Source: an uncultured Clostridia bacterium (GTDB lineage Bacteria; Bacillota; Clostridia; Oscillospirales; Ruminococcaceae). From it: a stretch of DNA of 59,742 bases. The stretch lies in contig CANPYR010000008.1 of assembly GCA_947588805.1 (NCBI GenBank), positions 1-59,742 of the forward strand, written 5' to 3'. The notes beneath the pieces are model-generated. The model worked only from the letters and a program-made list of their open reading frames with translations. It had not been told where the DNA came from and made no database searches. Below are positions 4,365 to 56,866 of this stretch, piece after piece. Position numbers and translations under genes: made by a program. The stretch's first letter is position 1; each line of letters opens with the position of its first letter.

Positions 4365-4393
4365 TTGACTTTTCCCTGCAAAAATGTTATAAT
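4365..4393 (+). promoter_or_regulatory. galE promoter
   Basis: TTGACT (4365-4370) and TATAAT (4388-4393) with a 17-nt spacer, 50 nt upstream of the galE start. Confidence 0.85.
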
Positions 4394-6304: not shown

Positions 6305-7972
6305 ATGCATCTTTCCGACATTGAAATCGCGCAGAGGGCTGAGATGAAGCCGATAACCGAGATCGCAAAGAGCGCGGGGATAGATCCCGAGATACTCGAG
6401 CAGTACGGAAAATACAAGGCTAAGCTCGACACGAAGCTCATACCGGAGCGCAAAAACGGCAAGCTCGTTCTGGTGACTGCGATAACGCCGACTCCCGCGG
6501 GAGAGGGTAAGACCACCACGACCATAGGTCTTGCGGACGGATTAAGAAGAATAGGGAAAAATTCCGTAGTCGCGCTGAGAGAGCCGTCCTTAGGGCCTGT
6601 TTTCGGGATAAAGGGAGGAGCCGCCGGAGGAGGATACGCGCAGGTAGTTCCGATGGAGGATATAAACCTCCACTTTACCGGAGACTTTCACGCGATCGGG
6701 GCCGCTAACAATCTTTTAGCGGCGATGCTCGATAATCATATCTACCAGGGAAACGCGCTTAATATCGATCCGAGAAGGATAACCTGGAAGCGCTGCGTAG
6801 ATATGAACGACCGCCAGCTGAGATATGTGACAGACGGTCTCGGCGGCAAGGCGAACGGCACTCCGCGCGAGGACGGATATGATATAACCGTCGCGAGCGA
6901 GATAATGGCGATTTTTTGTCTGGCTTCGGATATAGACGATCTTAAGGCGAGACTTTCAAGGATAATCGTAGGATACACCTACGACGATAAGCCGGTCACG
7001 GCGGGAGATCTCAAGGCGGTAGGAGCTATGACCGCGCTCCTAAAGGACGCTATCAAGCCGAATCTCGTGCAGACTCTTGAAGGCACACCGGCGATAGTTC
7101 ACGGCGGTCCGTTTGCAAATATCGCCCACGGCTGCAACTCGGTAATAGCGACAAAGACCGCGCTAAAGCTTGGGGATTATGCGATAACCGAAGCGGGCTT
7201 CGGAGCGGATCTCGGAGCGGAGAAGTTTTTGGATATAAAGTGCAGAATGGCGGGACTTACTCCGGACGCGGTGGTAATTGTCGCCACGGTCCGCGCGCTA
7301 AAGATGCACGGAGGGGTTCCGAAGACGGAGCTCGGCGCGGAAAATCTCGAAGCGCTTGAAAAGGGTCTTCCGAATCTTTTAAGGCACGTTTCAAACATCA
7401 AAAACGTATACGGGCTTCCTGCGGTGGTCGCTGTGAACAAATTCCCGACCGATACCGAAGCCGAGACGGAGCTTGTAATCAAAAAGTGCGCCGAGTACGG
7501 AGTCAAGGCGATTCTTTCGGACGTCTGGGCGAAGGGAGGAGAAGGAGGAGTAGAGCTTGCAAACGAAGTCGTAAGGCTTTGCAGCGAAGAGACTCCCGAT
7601 TTCAGATTCTCTTACGAGCTCGATCTTCCCATAGAGAAGAAGATAGAAGCGGTAGTAAGGAAGGTATACGGCGGCGAAGGCATAACGATCCTCCCCGCGG
7701 CTCAGAAGGAGCTTGCAAAGCTCACTGCTCTCGGCTTTGACAAATGCCCGGTATGTATCGCGAAAACGCAGTACAGCTTCTCGGACGATCCCACGAAGCT
7801 TGGCGCGCCAGAGGGCTTCACGGTAACGGTAAAGACGGCTAAGGTTTCAGCCGGCGCGGGATTTGTGGTCGCGCTCACGGGAGATATCCTGACTATGCCG
7901 GGCTTACCGAAGGTACCGGCCGCGGAGAAGATAGACGTGGATTCAAACGGAGTTATTTCGGGGCTGTTCTGA
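6305..7972 (+). CDS. fhs: Formate--tetrahydrofolate ligase
   Basis: Product of 555 aa, the standard size. It makes 10-formyl-THF from formate, THF and ATP, the entry of formate into one-carbon metabolism and the first folate step of the methyl branch of the acetyl-CoA pathway. The nucleotide-binding loop [12 protein letters not shown] covers residues 62-73. Family blocks such as [22 protein letters not shown] (about 97-118, glycine-rich) and [19 protein letters not shown] (about 157) are intact. It is monocistronic, between two terminators. No folD, fchA or other Wood-Ljungdahl genes are in the window, so its role is most safely described as C1/purine metabolism. Confidence 0.97.
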
Positions 7973-7998
7973 TTTGACTGGATTAAATATTTAATGTT

Positions 7999-8034
7999 CC
8001 CACCCCGGGCGGGCTGCTCGGGGTGGGGTTTTAT
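7999..8034 (+). terminator. fhs terminator
   Basis: CCCACCCCG (7999-8007) pairs perfectly with CGGGGTGGG (8019-8027), followed by G and a T-run. Confidence 0.85.
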
Positions 8035-27735: not shown

Positions 27736-27764
27736 TTGATTTTTTTGTCGGAATATATTATAAT
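27736..27764 (+). promoter_or_regulatory. Promoter of the P-type ATPase homologue gene
   Basis: TTGATT (27736-27741) and TATAAT (27759-27764) with a 17-nt spacer. The gene has its own good promoter despite the loss of catalytic residues. Confidence 0.8.
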
Positions 27765-27810
27765 ATAAAAATACCCAATCACCTTCACCCCCAAAAAGGA
27801 CGTGCAAAAT

Positions 27811-29679
27811 ATGAAAAAGACTTTATATAATATCCTTATCTTACCGGTGATCCTTTCGGCAGGAGCCGCGGCAGTGTGGGAGAGCCGCTTCGGGATCGGC
27901 TGGCCGGGGATACTTCTCTGCGCCGCGCTCTTTCTTCTCTCTTTGATAATGATGAAAAGCGTATTCTTCGCCGCCGCTTGGCAGATACGATACCTGCGGC
28001 TCTCGGAGGAATTCTTCGCTTCCTTCGGCGCTGTATTCGCGCTTTTCGGCGCAGTATTTTCTTTTGCGTCCTCGGCTTCCGGCAAAAATCCCGGAAACGG
28101 ACTTGAGCTTCTTATCATCCCGGCAGCTCTGAATATCTATGCCGTGAAGCTCTTAACAACCAAAAAGCACGACGCTCTGACTCTTAAGAAGAACCCCGAA
28201 GCTTTCAACTGCGTTCTTCCAAAGACCGCAAGGGTTCTCGTCGGCGGCTTTGAAAAGGATCTCCCGACTTCCGAAATCTCACCCGGAGATATCTTATCGC
28301 TGTCCCCAAACGACAGGATCCCCTGCGACGGTGAAATTCTGGCGGGGCGTTCCGATATAGACGAATCCTGCCTGAGCGGGGCTCTTTTCCCGGTTTTGAA
28401 ATCAGAGGGGGATCGTGTAATGGCGGGAACCGTTAATCTCAGCGGCTTTCTGACCGTGAGGGCTTCGGAGGGAAAGAGCGAGCTTGAAAAGAACCGTGAA
28501 GCCTATGAAGCTTCCGAAAACGCAAGAGCTGTTGGAAAAACCGAACGCGTATCTTCCATCTTCGGGACGGCTGTTTTTCTCGTTCTCACTCTTATAACCG
28601 CGGTCCTGATCTTTACCTCGGCAGGCGTGAAGTACGTCTTTGCGGCGGGACTTGCGCTCATGTCGCTGCTGCCCTGCGGGCTTATGATCGTAAGAGTATC
28701 CCGGGACAGGGGATGCAAAAAAAGAATGAAAAAAAACGGCGTGGAGCTTTCAGACTCAGCGGCGCTGGAGCCCTTATCCGAAACCGCGACCGCTGTATTT
28801 TCACATACCGGAGCTGCGACGGTGGGTAGGCTCAGCGTTCTGAAGACCATGCCGGTGAACGGACAGACCGAACGCACGCTGATAAGGCTTGCGGCTGCGG
28901 TGCTGAAATGCTTTGATACCCCTCTCACAGAAGCCGTGGTAAGCCGCTGCGAGGGATTTGATATCGCCGTCCCGCCCGTAATAGCTCCCGAGAGAATGCC
29001 GGGGAGATTCATGGGAACGGTTGACGGAAAGAGCGTTACGGTATCCATGCTCCGCGAGGACGTTATATCGATGGGCGGGGATCCCGAAGACAAAGCGGAC
29101 ATAGCAGTATTTTCCTCCGACGAGCCGATAGGAGCGATAATCCTCGGCGACAAGCTCAAGCAATCCGCTCCCGCAGCCGTCACGGGATTCAAATTAAAAG
29201 GGATAAAGACCGTTCTTGCAGCGGACGACGCGGCCTTCGCAGCCGATAACGCCTATCTTTCGGGCGTACAGGAATACAAGACCGGTCTTGACGGGAGCGA
29301 GAAAGCGAAGTATGTAGAATCTCTTTCCAAAAAAGGCGGAAGCGTGATATTTGTAGCCGACGGCATTTCGGACATAGCAGCCGCCGCGCATGCGGACTGT
29401 TCGTTCGCTATGTCGTCGTCGCGCGAGGAAGTAAAGAGCGCAGCTTCGGCGGTGCTATTAAGAAACGATTTAAGGGATATAATTCCCGCGATAGAGACCG
29501 CGCAGGAAGGAATAAAAGCGGAGAAATCCGCAGCGACGATGGGGATCTGGGCAAGAGCCGCTGGGGGATTAGGGGCAGTTATTACAGGGGTTTTGGGGTA
29601 CAGCCTGACAGCCGCGGGGATAGCGGCGGGAGGGATACTGGTAAGCTGGTTAGTAAGCGGAGTAAGAGCGGGGAAGTGA
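27811..29679 (+). CDS. P1-type ATPase homologue lacking catalytic residues (pseudoenzyme)
   Basis: Product of 622 aa from the ATG at 27811 (AAGGA 10 nt upstream; the GTG at 27802 overlaps it). The overall layout is that of a P-type ATPase: four N-terminal membrane segments (about 5-115), an A-domain (130-225), a hairpin of two membrane segments (250-298), the P/N domains (325-555) and two C-terminal membrane segments (575-615). Yet the motifs are altered: TGES is SGAL (189-192), CPC is LPC (287-289), DKTGT is SHTGA (331-335, so the phosphorylated Asp is Ser331), the HP motif His is Thr370, TGD is AAD and GDGIND is ADGISD (516-521). The reading frame is intact. It cannot form the aspartyl-phosphate and should not pump; a sensor, scaffold or regulatory role is inference. 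Confidence 0.85.
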   Translation: MKKTLYNILILPVILSAGAAAVWESRFGIGWPGILLCAALFLLSLIMMKSVFFAAAWQIRYLRLSEEFFASFGAVFALFGAVFSFASSASGKNPGNGLELLIIPAALNIYAVKLLTTKKHDALTLKKNPEAFNCVLPKTARVLVGGFEKDLPTSEISPGDILSLSPNDRIPCDGEILAGRSDIDESCLSGALFPVLKSEGDRVMAGTVNLSGFLTVRASEGKSELEKNREAYEASENARAVGKTERVSSIFGTAVFLVLTLITAVLIFTSAGVKYVFAAGLALMSLLPCGLMIVRVSRDRGCKKRMKKNGVELSDSAALEPLSETATAVFSHTGAATVGRLSVLKTMPVNGQTERTLIRLAAAVLKCFDTPLTEAVVSRCEGFDIAVPPVIAPERMPGRFMGTVDGKSVTVSMLREDVISMGGDPEDKADIAVFSSDEPIGAIILGDKLKQSAPAAVTGFKLKGIKTVLAADDAAFAADNAYLSGVQEYKTGLDGSEKAKYVESLSKKGGSVIFVADGISDIAAAAHADCSFAMSSSREEVKSAASAVLLRNDLRDIIPAIETAQEGIKAEKSAATMGIWARAAGGLGAVITGVLGYSLTAAGIAAGGILVSWLVSGVRAGK

Positions 29680-29687
29680 TCAAGTGT

Positions 29688-29718
29688 GGGGAGACGCTCG
29701 CCGGGCGTCTCCCCTTTT
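29688..29718 (+). terminator. Strong intrinsic terminator
   Basis: GGGGAGACGC (29688-29697) pairs perfectly with GCGTCTCCCC (29705-29714), followed by TTTT. It ends the P-type ATPase homologue transcript. Confidence 0.92.
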
Positions 29719-29738
29719 GACAGCGAATGCTGTCAAAA
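29715..29738. repeat. Second perfect hairpin behind the terminator
   Basis: TTTTGACAGC-GAAT-GCTGTCAAAA, ten perfect base pairs, sharing its first four T with the terminator. The two stems could not use those T at the same time. Confidence 0.75.
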
Positions 29739-37284: not shown

Positions 37285-38505
37285 TTATTCCTGCGCCTCG
37301 AGTCCCGCCATTATCTTTTTGTATTCCGCGTCGTTGCACTGTACGAAATGACCCGGCCTTACTTCGCGGAAGGAAGGCTGATCTACGCTGTAGTCGTGCT
37401 CCGCAAGGGGATTGTAAACTATTCTCTTTCTGGCCTTTTCGTAGATCGGGTCGGGAAGCGGGATAGCTGAAAGAAGCGAACGGGTGTAGGGATGGAGCGG
37501 GTGAGCGAAGAGCTCGTCGGAATCCGCAAGCTCGACTAATTTTCCGTAGTACATGACTCCTATTCTGTCGGAGAAATATTTAACTACCGAAAGGTCGTGA
37601 GCGATAAAGAGGATCGTAAGACCGAAGCGCTCTCTTAAGTCGTTCAGGAGGTTTATGACCTGAGCCTGTACCGATACGTCGAGCGCTGAAACAGGCTCGT
37701 CGGCGATGATGAGCTCCGGGTTCATGATTATGGACCTTGCTACGCCGATTCTCTGTCTCTGGCCGCCCGAGAACTCATGCGGATAGCGCGAAGCGTGTTC
37801 CCTTACAAGTCCCACGAGTTCGAGCATCTCATAGACCTTTTCATCCAGAACCTTTTTATCCTTCTCGCCTTGGATAACAAGTCCCTCGGCGATTATTTCC
37901 TTTACGGTCATACGGGGATCCAAAGAAGCTATCGGGTCCTGGAAGATCATCTGGATCTGAGTGACGAGCTTGGTGTTCTTAGCCTTTCTGAGCTCGTTCT
38001 TGAACTCTGCTTCAAGCCTTGTCTTTTCCTCGCCCTCGGCTTTGGAGATAAGCTCGTTATACTTTTTAGTCACCTCTGCGACCTTCTTTGCGGAATATTC
38101 CTTGTCGCAGTTTTTCTGATCGTTATTTGCGGCCTTGATGTTTTCGCGCTGTTCGGCCACGAACTTATCAAGCTCCGCTTTAAGCTTCGCCTGATCCGCT
38201 CCGGGCTTCTTGATGTTTTCCGCATACTCTTTCTTAGCGTTTGCTATCGCGTCCTTATAGGACTTAACGCCCGCGCAGATCCTCACGCCCTTGAAGATAA
38301 CGTCGCCGGACGTGATGTTATAGAGCTTAATGATCGAGCGGCCGGTGGTGGTTTTTCCGCATCCCGACTCACCGACAAGTCCGAACACCTCGCCCTTCTT
38401 GATATCGAAGCTTACGTCGTCCACGGCCTTTGTGGTAAAGCTTCCTGCCTTGAAATACTGGCAGAGATGAGATACCCTAAGCAGGGTTTCCTGGTTTTCC
38501 ATCAT
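37285..38505 (-). CDS. Peptide ABC transporter ATPase, OppF type, with about 100-residue helical insertion
   Basis: Product of 406 aa versus roughly 310-330 for usual OppF. Walker A is GESGCGKTT (45-53). The normal sequence continues to [11 protein letters not shown] (66-76). A lysine/glutamate/alanine-rich, probably coiled-coil stretch then spans about 78-180, before the Q-loop resumes as [14 protein letters not shown] (186-199). Signature [10 protein letters not shown], Walker [14 protein letters not shown] and the H-loop AHDLSVV are intact, so it should hydrolyse ATP. The OppF C-terminal motif [17 protein letters not shown] is present. It overlaps the OppD-type gene by 4 nt. Confidence 0.92.
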
Positions 38506-40658
38506 TTGGCCCCCTCTCTCTTGGCGTTCATTCTGTTTATCCTGTCCACGACAGCCTTAGGCGGGTCGACCTTCGGCGCGTCGGGGTGCAGGAGCCATGT
38601 CGCGGCGAAGTGTGTATCGGTGATTTTGAACATAGGCGGCTGGCGCTCGAAGTCGATCTGCATGGCGTATTTGTTTCTCGGCGCGAACGCGTCTCCCTTC
38701 GGGGGATAGATCATGTTAGGAGGCGTTCCGGGGATAGCTTCAAGCTTCTCGTTTGTATCGAGGTCAGGCATGGAGCTCAAAAGCGCCCAGGTATAGGGGT
38801 GAGCGGAGTGATAGAAGATATCCTCCGAGGTGCCGTATTCGACTATCTTTCCCGCGTACATAACCGCGACTCTGTCGGCCATGTTTGCGACAACGCCGAG
38901 GTCGTGGGTGATGAAGATAACCGAGAGCTGGCGCTCATCCTTAAGGCGGTTTATAAGTTCAAGTATCTGCGACTGGATAGTAACGTCCAATGCCGTAGTA
39001 GGCTCGTCGCATATAAGGATGTCGGGGTTAGCGGCGAGGGCAATCGCGATAACTATTCTCTGGCGCATACCGCCCGAAAATTCAAACGGATACTGTCTGT
39101 ATCTCTTATGCGGCTCGGCGATTCCGACCTCGTCCATAAGCTTTATCGCTCTGTGCTTAGCTATTCTTCTTGTGACCTTAGCGACGACGCCGGAAGCGTT
39201 GGTCATAAGGAAATTGATAATGTCTACCGTCTCGGAGTCGTAGTTTCTTGAATCTGCGGCAGCGAGGGCTTCGTCGTAGTGATCGATAAGGCGGCGAATA
39301 AGCCTTGAGATGTTCTCCTTGACGAGCTCAAGATCGGTCACATTCGGCTCTGCGAGCTCCCAGCCCGCCTGTTTGCCGCTCACGATTATGCGTTCATACT
39401 TTTTCTTGTCGCGGGCGTATTTTTTCAGCGCCTTTCTGTTTGCGACGATCCCGTTGAAGTAGCTGTCCACTTCGGATTTCAAAGACGGAGCGAAGGTAAA
39501 GCTAAGGCTGTCCTTGACGATGGCGAGCGGGTCTATCGCTTTTTTGACGACCGCCGCAAGGCTCTTCTGAGCTTCGTAGGACTCCTTTCTGTCGAGGTTT
39601 TCCTTTGCGTAAATCGGCAAAGCTGCGTTAAGGGCGCTTATCGCTTCCCTCATATTCTTATAGGTCTCGGAAGCGGAATATTTGAGCGCGCCCTCTGCGT
39701 CCGAGATGAACGCGAGCATGAATTCCTTATCGAGATATTCCTTCAGGTAGTCGTTCATCTTTTCGATCGGCATGTCCGGAAGCTCCTTGCCGCTGAAGGT
39801 AAGGTAGTAACCCATCCTGAAGAAATTCGGAACCGGCTTTTTGACCGCTTCGTCGGATATATCCCTAATCCTGTAAAGGATCTTAAGGGTAGACTCGAAT
39901 TCGGAGTTCTTTCTTCCGGCCTTGAAGGAGGGGAGGAGCTTTGAGGAGAGAGCTTTTATCTCGCCGCCGTATTTCTCCGGATCGATAACATAGGTGTTCA
40001 GAGAGCCGACAGCCTGCTTGGAAATGTCCCTGAGTCTGTCTAAAGCGTCTTTTCCGGCCGATTTCTTTTCAAGCTCGAACGCTATCTTTTCGATGTCGTC
40101 AAGATTTTCCTCTGCGGCTTCCTTAGCGGAATTGAACGCGGATTCAAGCTCTATGTGCTTGAATTCAAATTTATCGAATTTCTTGCAGCTCTCGGTAAGC
40201 CTTTCTGCGTCCGACGGGTTGTTTTTGATCATCGCCGCGTTCAGGCTCTTGAGGTAGGAATTAAAGGTCGAGCGGCTTTCACGCTGTCTTGCCTTTCCCT
40301 TTAAGAGCATGGCTTCGGTGAGCTGTTTTCCTATTCTTACGATAGGGTTCAAAGAGGACATGGGGTCCTGGAAGATCATAGCGATCTTGTCGCCTCTGAT
40401 CTTGTGGAAATCCTCCTCGGAGATCTTAAGAAGGTCCTTGCCGTCATAAATTATCTCTCCGGATTCGATTATTGAGTTCGCGGCTAAGATACCGAGAATA
40501 GCCTTTGACGTTACCGACTTACCCGAGCCGGATTCGCCGACTATGGCAAGAGTTTCGCCTTTTGCGAGGTCGAAGTTTATTCCTCTTACAGCCTGTACCT
40601 TGCCGTTTGAGGTCTTGAAGGATATCCGAAGGTCTTTAACGCTTAATTTGTTCTCCAT
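38502..40658 (-). CDS. Peptide ABC transporter ATPase, OppD type, with about 375-residue insertion
   Basis: Product of 718 aa versus roughly 330-350 for usual OppD. Walker A GESGSGKS (41-48) and Q-loop [12 protein letters not shown] (94-105) are normal. From about 122 to 498 there is a helical, charged extra domain where the helical subdomain normally has a short loop. The fold then resumes: [22 protein letters not shown], signature FSGGMRQR (527-534), Walker [13 protein letters not shown] (547-558), H-loop THDLGVV and the OppD C-terminal [16 protein letters not shown] with the region usually followed by a Cys cluster (none here). Catalytic residues are complete. The insert matches no domain I recognise. 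Stop overlaps the OppF-type start. Confidence 0.93.
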
Positions 40659-54764: not shown

Positions 54765-55052
54765 ATGACATTAAAACCGATTTTTGACCGCGTTATCGTA
54801 AAGATGACCGAGGCCGAAGAAACCACGAAGTCGGGGATCATACTTACCGGCTCCGCTAAAGAAAAGCCGCAGCTTGCCGAAGTAATAGCGGTAGGCGACG
54901 GCAGCTCTCACGACGGAAAGGAACCCGTAGCGATGAAGGTAAAGCCGGGCGACAAGGTACTGCTTTCAAAGTACAGCGGCACCGAGGTAAAGGTTGACGG
55001 CGAGGAGCTTATAATCGTAAACATGGGCGACATTTTAGCGATCGCAGAATAA
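54765..55052 (+). CDS. groES: Co-chaperonin GroES
   Basis: Product of 95 aa, standard length. It caps the GroEL barrel. LKPIFDRVIVKMTEAEETTKSGI (3-25) includes the mobile loop, and the C-terminal GEELIIVNMGDILAI is typical. It is the first gene of the operon behind the CIRCE element, with AGGAGG ribosome binding site. Confidence 0.97.
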   Translation: MTLKPIFDRVIVKMTEAEETTKSGIILTGSAKEKPQLAEVIAVGDGSSHDGKEPVAMKVKPGDKVLLSKYSGTEVKVDGEELIIVNMGDILAIAE

Positions 55053-55067
55053 CACGGAAGGAGATAA

Positions 55068-56705
<1,638 letters not shown>

Positions 56706-56722
56706 TAAAAAATTCAAATTCG

Positions 56723-56866
56723 GAGCCGATAAATCGGCTTGAATGTAACGAATAAGCCGGCGGAAAGGGGAAGGCCGCATAAACGGCAAAACAAAAATTC
56801 AGCGCGGCGGTCCCCCCCCAAGAGTGTGCAAAATAAAGCCATATCCGAGATTTCGGGTATGGCTTT
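56723..56866 (+). terminator. groESL downstream region with terminator
   Basis: AAAGCCATA (56835-56843) pairs with TATGGCTTT (56858-56866) with T-rich flank and is the probable terminator. An earlier small hairpin AGCCGAT/ATCGGCT is near 56723-56740. The rest of the gap to 57120 holds nothing recognisable. Confidence 0.75.

Follow-up and report, generated by a model that had tools for sequence, protein, structure and literature searches.

The stretch of DNA analysed here, referred to as the window, comprises 59,742 nucleotides and is contig C8 in the genome of an uncultured member of the Ruminococcaceae (Clostridia), an assembly of 2.0 Mb in 53 contigs that is 86% complete. Within it lies an open reading frame whose product would have the complete layout of a P1-type ATPase, with coordinates, frame and motifs as described in the first-pass annotation of this DNA. 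The gene and its immediate signals are as follows.

27811 to 29679, + strand: coding sequence for a putative P1B-type pseudo-ATPase of 622 amino acids, from ATG at 27811 to the stop codon TGA (29677 to 29679), which is included
27795 to 27800, + strand: ribosome-binding-like AAAGGA, 10 nt 5' of the ATG, read from the sequence
27736 to 27764, + strand: sigma-70-type promoter-like site TTGATT-17-TATAAT, from a consensus scan
29688 to 29719, + strand: terminator-like perfect 10-bp stem with a 7-nt loop and TTTTG (stem-loop 29688 to 29714), read from the sequence

It had been claimed that the gene has its own promoter and terminator, and each part of this claim stands with some qualification. The promoter scan returned 2 matches over both strands of the window where 1.2 are expected, so that a single match is hardly above chance; however, by eye an equivalent TTGNNN-17-TATA(A/C)T pair is seen upstream of the start codon in all eight orthologues described below, and a similar pair is seen at 9 of 13 loci with the intact form. 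The terminator-like stem is present and perfect, although it is followed by four T only and is absent from the list given by the consensus scan. The promoter-like site suggests ordinary expression, not special control. A T-rich start of the spacer (TTGMWTTTT...TATAAT) is common to the promoter-like sites of the window at 4365, 8249, 27617 (- strand), 27736 and 36027, and may reflect how promoters are commonly built in this genus; because similar spacers occur at these other sites, the spacer was rejected as a special operator.

The neighbours of the gene in the window are leuS, an alpha/beta hydrolase gene and an aspartokinase gene. At the other seven orthologue loci proA is nearby in six, and an acidic-tailed membrane protein, DegV and an NCS2 permease occur in varying subsets; comparison of the neighbourhoods of all eight loci reveals no conserved partner gene. 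A membrane protein adjacent to the gene at several loci was considered as a partner and rejected, as it belongs to the core genes (31 of 31 genomes) and its adjacency is no evidence. We also looked in nine relatives for a place next to leuS from which the gene is missing and recognised none, the regions past leuS having almost nothing in common with the window. Elsewhere in the window are two ABC ATPases, oligopeptide-type by eye, in which Walker A and the signature are separated by 486 residues (38502 to 40658, - strand) and 200 residues (37285 to 38505, - strand), spacings longer than usual in ABC ATPases. A 584-aa open frame (55035 to 56789, - strand) lies antisense to a GroEL-like gene (by eye; 55074 to 56705, + strand) and is probably a chance antisense frame.

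The predicted protein is homologous to P-type ATPases far beyond chance. It matches the Pfam families E1-E2_ATPase with 92 bits (cut-off 28.1) and Hydrolase with 30.3 (cut-off 26.4), and passes the cut-off of the general NCBIfam model TIGR01494; with TIGR01525, the model for heavy-metal P-type ATPases, it scores 201 bits, under the 346-bit cut-off. Its top PDB match is the zinc-transporting ATPase 4umv (E 5.5e-41), and a profile of the eight orthologues matches the copper-exporting ATPase 3j08 over profile positions 13 to 598 of 634 (E 8e-90). From these profile and PDB matches, the A, P and N domains occur in the usual P1B order. P1B pumps have eight transmembrane helices; in a simple hydropathy scan of the window copy, hydrophobic segments fall at the positions predicted for such helices, four ahead of the A domain and two ahead of the P domain, with M5 and M6 not separated.

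Motif states were taken from a position-based alignment of the window copy, its seven orthologues, 16 co-orthologues and 13 CopA sequences; aligned positions were preferred, as simple regular expressions misjudge some rows. The states below come from this alignment, and that at 28801 also from the sequence itself.

28375 to 28386, + strand: A-domain loop SGAL (residues 189 to 192) replacing TGES
28669 to 28677, + strand: LPC in M4 (residues 287 to 289) replacing CPC
28801 to 28815, + strand: SHTGA (residues 331 to 335) replacing DKTGT, with the Ser codon TCA
28918 to 28923, + strand: Thr-Pro (residues 370 to 371) replacing the N-domain His-Pro (HP)
28957 to 29061, + strand: N-domain stretch (residues 383 to 417) with an altered GxG loop and a one-residue deletion common to all eight orthologues
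29218 to 29229, + strand: AADD (residues 470 to 473) replacing xTGD
29356 to 29373, + strand: ADGISD (residues 516 to 521) replacing GDGIND, both Asp retained
29554 to 29556, + strand: Arg582 at the position of the Asn of YN in M5

All the replacements listed by the first-pass annotation are present in the window copy, although its statement that all signature motifs are lost goes too far: the listed motifs are altered, but the Pro-Cys of CPC, K498 (which we take to be the Lys of HAD motif III) and the acidic D517 and D521 of the GDGxND loop remain. Depending on the placement of a gap, the TGD of the window copy aligns as ADD or AAD. The Ser codon TCA corresponds to GAC in six orthologues and to AAC in the seventh; being three base changes away from GAC, it is very unlikely to be a slip, in agreement with the earlier view that the Asp to Ser change is not a sequencing error. 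The features expected of a working pump, namely the Asp of DKTGT, the (T/S)GE loop, the nucleotide site formed by HP and GxG, and the CPC metal site, are not found intact in the window copy. Judged by its sequence the product would be a pseudoenzyme, in that homology to an enzyme is combined with the absence of catalytic residues. A protein lacking HP, the GxG loop and the nucleophilic Asp would, we infer, form no phosphoenzyme, and so would neither cycle between E1 and E2 nor pump.

The metal-site changes are, from the alignment, only partly special to the eight orthologues. YN in M5 is a metal-site motif of Cu-type P1B ATPases, according to the accessible portion of one source (PMC9433437). 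The residue 582 column is Arg in all eight, Asn in 13 of 13 CopA sequences and Asn in 12 of the 16 intact co-orthologues, so that four of the latter lack the M5 Asn; MxxSS (M6) is absent from the window copy and likewise from the intact co-orthologues.

To describe who carries the gene, we searched 31 genomes of the genus, assigning co-orthologues by tree, synteny cluster or motif; clear orthologues match with 279 bits or more. Eight genomes, that of the window included, have a degenerate orthologue, 16 have a largely intact co-orthologue of about 690 to 770 aa, and seven (G201, G213, G215, G216, G217, G221 and G222) have neither. Across the full alignment, the orthologues share 33 to 35% identity with the window copy. 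Going by score and frame length, no genome of the genus has both forms among the matches listed; the orthologue genomes also contain pumps of 630 to 660 aa, of which that of the window genome (L003) alone was placed on a tree. Classed by score, no further degenerate orthologue was found in 197 genomes of the family or, with the eight-sequence profile, in 295 genomes of the order. In the latter search three sampled family members score 845 to 954 bits and the next match, from an 872-aa frame, 333 bits; the matches below 845 bits come from 40 further genomes and have the frame length of ordinary pumps. The genomes with neither form include all three of the nearest relatives of the window species by LeuS, and on this distribution the gene is dispensable at least.

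HP and GxG are missing from all eight orthologues, each of which has also lost no fewer than three other catalytic features, in combinations that depend on the species. Common to all are the loss of the HP His, the changed GxG with its one-residue deletion, the replacement of Ser453 by Ala, and Arg582 where CopA has Asn. The phospho-Asp is gone in two, being Ser in the window copy and Asn in G218, and is present in the other six. The Lys of DKTG is missing in seven and kept only in G218; the Asp of TGD and the Asn of GDGxND are each missing in seven; Ala replaces the first Gly of GDG in five; and the first Cys of CPC is missing in three. The Glu of TGE is missing in the window copy (SGA) and in G218 (TGA), with TGE intact in four and RGE in two. 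Since six copies keep the Asp, four of them together with TGE, the case against an ATPase cycle is strongest in the window copy and G218, and is more a matter of inference elsewhere. Moreover, the second Gly of GxG is replaced, without the deletion, in 3 of the 16 intact co-orthologues, and a change of GxG alone is therefore no proof of lost ATP binding. The first-pass annotation had supposed a concerted loss of catalysis and had asked whether the same replacements recur in homologues; the same motifs are indeed altered among the eight, but the combinations differ and the loss is mosaic, not concerted.

Across 29 intact sequences (the 16 co-orthologues and 13 CopA), 89 columns reach a conservation of 95% or more. 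The window copy is unchanged at 51 of them, and all eight orthologues at 25. By our own list of catalytic positions, the window copy retains 10 of 18 catalytic and 41 of 71 other columns, and all eight retain 4 of 18 and 21 of 71 respectively, which indicates that catalytic positions are no better kept than the rest. The simplest history would be that nucleotide handling was lost early, on the stem of the clade, after which residues that had ceased to be important disappeared independently.

In a tree of 31 rows the eight form one clade (100/100) inside a larger clade with the intact co-orthologues (99/95), and CopA of the same genus is separate (98/100). A quick tree of 77 rows agrees, and by regular expression 69 of 69 other pump sequences in it keep the D.TG motif. 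The window row is a long branch in both trees and the longest of its clade. In a tree of LeuS, which does not include G200 and in which the LeuS of G197 is divergent, 14 of 15 species with the intact form fall in one clade (95), with the eight orthologue genomes and the seven genomes with neither form outside it. The LeuS of G197 (L155) and G200 are 45 to 46% identical to that of the window, as against 77 to 89% for the best match in the other 28 genomes; leuS may perhaps have been replaced in these two. Taken together, the gene tree and the LeuS tree point to an ancestor that was probably a working pump, which degenerated or was lost in one part of the genus.

The intact co-orthologues (L040-L043, L047, L049-L053, L056-L059, L061 and L081) retain the Asp, HP and TGD in 16 of 16 and TGE in 15. 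Departures from consensus are also seen in this group: GDSxND instead of GDGxND in all 16, DMTGT in two, and an altered CPC in three (SPC, SPY and CPS, the last two in G197 and G206). Directly before the intact pump gene in G224, G199 and G198 there is a frame of 76 to 81 aa with GMxCxxC, presumably a CopZ-type metallochaperone, and a similar frame occurs near one degenerate gene. As identified by eye, these are:

L076, 9834 to 10076: small GMxCxxC frame before an intact pump gene
L077, 11454 to 11696: small GMxCxxC frame before an intact pump gene
L079, 12277 to 12504: small GMxCxxC frame before an intact pump gene
L067 (G220), 7762 to 8034: small GMxCxxC frame, CopZ-like, about 1.3 kb from the degenerate gene

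The presence of such a frame next to three intact pumps suggests that the ancestral protein had a metal as its substrate. A pattern scan found no small GMxCxxC frame at the other 10 of 13 loci with the intact form, and no convincing CxxC chaperone-like frame occurs at the seven degenerate loci besides G220, the one poor candidate lying at the edge of the G219 stretch.

Codon models, run with our own code and unchecked against a published program, indicate that the degenerate gene is constrained. Among the closest orthologues (G219, G223 and G220; dS about 2) pairwise omega is 0.12 to 0.15, and the 28 orthologue pairs give likelihood ratios of 63 to 260 against omega = 1, with dS saturated in most. 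On an eight-taxon tree (581 gap-free columns, one assumed topology that differs in detail from the 31-row tree) omega is 0.16 overall; giving the window branch its own value (0.19) fits no better, and fixing it at 1 is rejected (2dlnL 29.9). The first-pass annotation had named dN/dS as a check on maintenance of the gene, and purifying selection is what we see. The gene nevertheless evolves fast. As a measure that does not depend on the saturated dS of this gene, dN of the window copy against its seven orthologues is 0.81 to 0.92, compared with 0.21 to 0.23 for CopA of the same genomes versus the window genome, a non-synonymous rate about four times that of CopA. Omega for CopA in the closest trio is 0.038 to 0.055, so that the constraint, though real, is roughly threefold weaker than that on a functioning pump. 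For intact co-orthologues in unsaturated pairs omega is 0.05 to 0.11.

When neutral evolution was simulated for 1000 copies, the frame survived in 65 at 0.05 changes per site, in 10 at 0.1 and in none at 0.25. For LeuS, dS of the window genome against the other seven is 1.46 to 2.87, and the frame is open in all eight orthologues; at such divergences a neutrally evolving frame would be closed. The gene is by these measures kept by selection rather than a pseudogene, with saturation of dS as the caveat. Intact close relatives together with relaxed selection had been offered as signs of simple pseudogenisation, and we find half of this: intact sister copies exist and the gene is less constrained than CopA, yet the window copy is not evolving neutrally.

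The distribution of constraint within the protein is informative. Mean identity among the eight is 61% in the A domain, 48 to 50% in N and P, and 28 to 31% in the membrane parts; for the window copy against the rest the values are 54%, 36 to 40% and 18 to 23%. Five diverse intact co-orthologues give 46%, 48 to 54% and 27 to 29% respectively, so that the A domain has gained relative weight in the eight, and low identity in the membrane parts is not special to them. There are also 42 columns fixed in at least seven of the eight to a residue found in less than 10% of the 29 intact sequences, and the window copy has 35 of these residues. They include P388, P389, I391, R395, S412 and E416 in the altered N-domain stretch 383 to 417, E199 in the A domain, and R582 in M5. 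Part of the 42 may be shared by ancestry only.

Because of these patterns of loss and retention, we propose that the gene probably encodes a non-pumping P1B pseudo-ATPase that arose from a working pump and is kept for a non-catalytic, likely protein-binding, role. In the most likely mechanism the membrane part would now serve as an anchor, and the cytosolic head (A, N and P) would present a fixed surface for binding a partner, perhaps another membrane protein, above all through the A domain, now the best conserved part. A binding platform would be the reading that asks least. More tentatively, and with somewhat less than an even chance of being right, a bacterial P-type ATPase fold may here have been turned into a dedicated non-transporting membrane protein whose cytosolic head (chiefly the A domain and the new PPxIxxER motif of the N domain) serves as a signalling or assembly platform, the steps of this conversion being visible among species of the genus.

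The main rival to a retained binding role, unlikely though to be taken seriously, is that the gene is slowly dying: pumping became useless, catalysis was lost first, and the window copy is a late survivor. The seven of 31 genomes with neither form, the three nearest relatives by LeuS among them, would be expected from this, as would the fast evolution and long branch of the window copy and its retention of just 51 of the 89 pump-invariant positions. Slow decay is harder to reconcile with a frame open in all eight at divergences that close a neutral one, with the rejection of omega = 1 on the window branch, with the promoter-like site upstream of every copy, and with 42 newly fixed columns.

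It is less probable still that the protein is a transporter without an ATP cycle, that is, a passive pathway for a metal or other ion, or a metal-binding membrane buffer. The retained Pro-Cys of CPC, the invariance of C172, C289 and C380 in all eight, and the small frame like a CxxC heavy-metal domain about 1.3 kb away in G220 are consistent with such a function, but the membrane parts are the least conserved (18 to 23% between the window copy and its orthologues), the M5 Asn is Arg in all eight, and the other seven loci have no such CxxC frame save the unconvincing one in G219. We consider it quite improbable that the protein still cycles as an ATPase by some unusual chemistry, along the lines argued for ERMA/TMEM94, notwithstanding the retention of K498, D517 and D521 and of the Asp in six of the eight orthologues. 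In the part of the ERMA report available (PMC13322241), Mg2+ uptake is described despite DKQGI, GSSANL and the lack of TGES; however, the same text has D427N abolishing uptake, so that ERMA needs its Asp where the window copy has Ser, and all eight orthologues have lost HP and carry a shortened GxG loop. An artefact of assembly, contamination or annotation is scarcely credible and largely refuted, for although seven of the orthologues come from assemblies of uncultured bacteria, the gene is present in eight separate genomes and its Ser codon is three base changes from an Asp codon.

A P-type ATPase is generally assumed to be a pump, and the window protein would be labelled a P-type ATPase by general models (the two Pfam families and TIGR01494). 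Within one genus there are the intact form, versions that have lost other motifs but not the Asp, one copy with most of the motifs lost, and absence of the gene. With such a series one can test how catalysis is lost in a transporter under continuing selection on its sequence, and to what other uses the fold may be put. Our literature search, in which most subscription papers lay outside coverage, brought up no bacterial P-type pseudo-ATPase, and with the search terms used no bacterial pseudoenzyme was found in the accessible sections of a review of open P-type ATPase questions (PMC10654040).

Compared with known systems, the window protein resembles the P1B ATPases CopA and ZntA in its full-length homology and in the order of its A, P and N parts. 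Unlike them it lacks the phospho-Asp, the DKTG Lys, the TGE Glu, the HP His, the GxG loop, the first Cys of CPC and the M5 Asn, and is too short for an N-terminal HMA domain. The intact co-orthologues are its nearest group (99/95) and share its TVGKL and RNDLRD stretches and, at 9 of 13 loci, a similar promoter-like site; they differ in retaining the Asp, HP and TGD, in an omega of 0.05 to 0.11, and in that three lie behind a CxxC chaperone-like gene. PcrP (PA2803), as described in the available portion of its report (PMC12632274), is likewise a HAD-family protein with no activity detected and with partner binding shown, although it is phosphonatase-like and not a P-type ATPase. The closest precedent is the eukaryotic TMEM94/ERMA, which keeps its own A, P and N domains with TGES and GDGxND altered, and for which one study detected no ATPase activity (PMC12134183) while the accessible part of another claims pump activity (PMC13322241). 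It differs from the window protein in having ten helices, in retaining its Asp, and in that its status as a pump is disputed.
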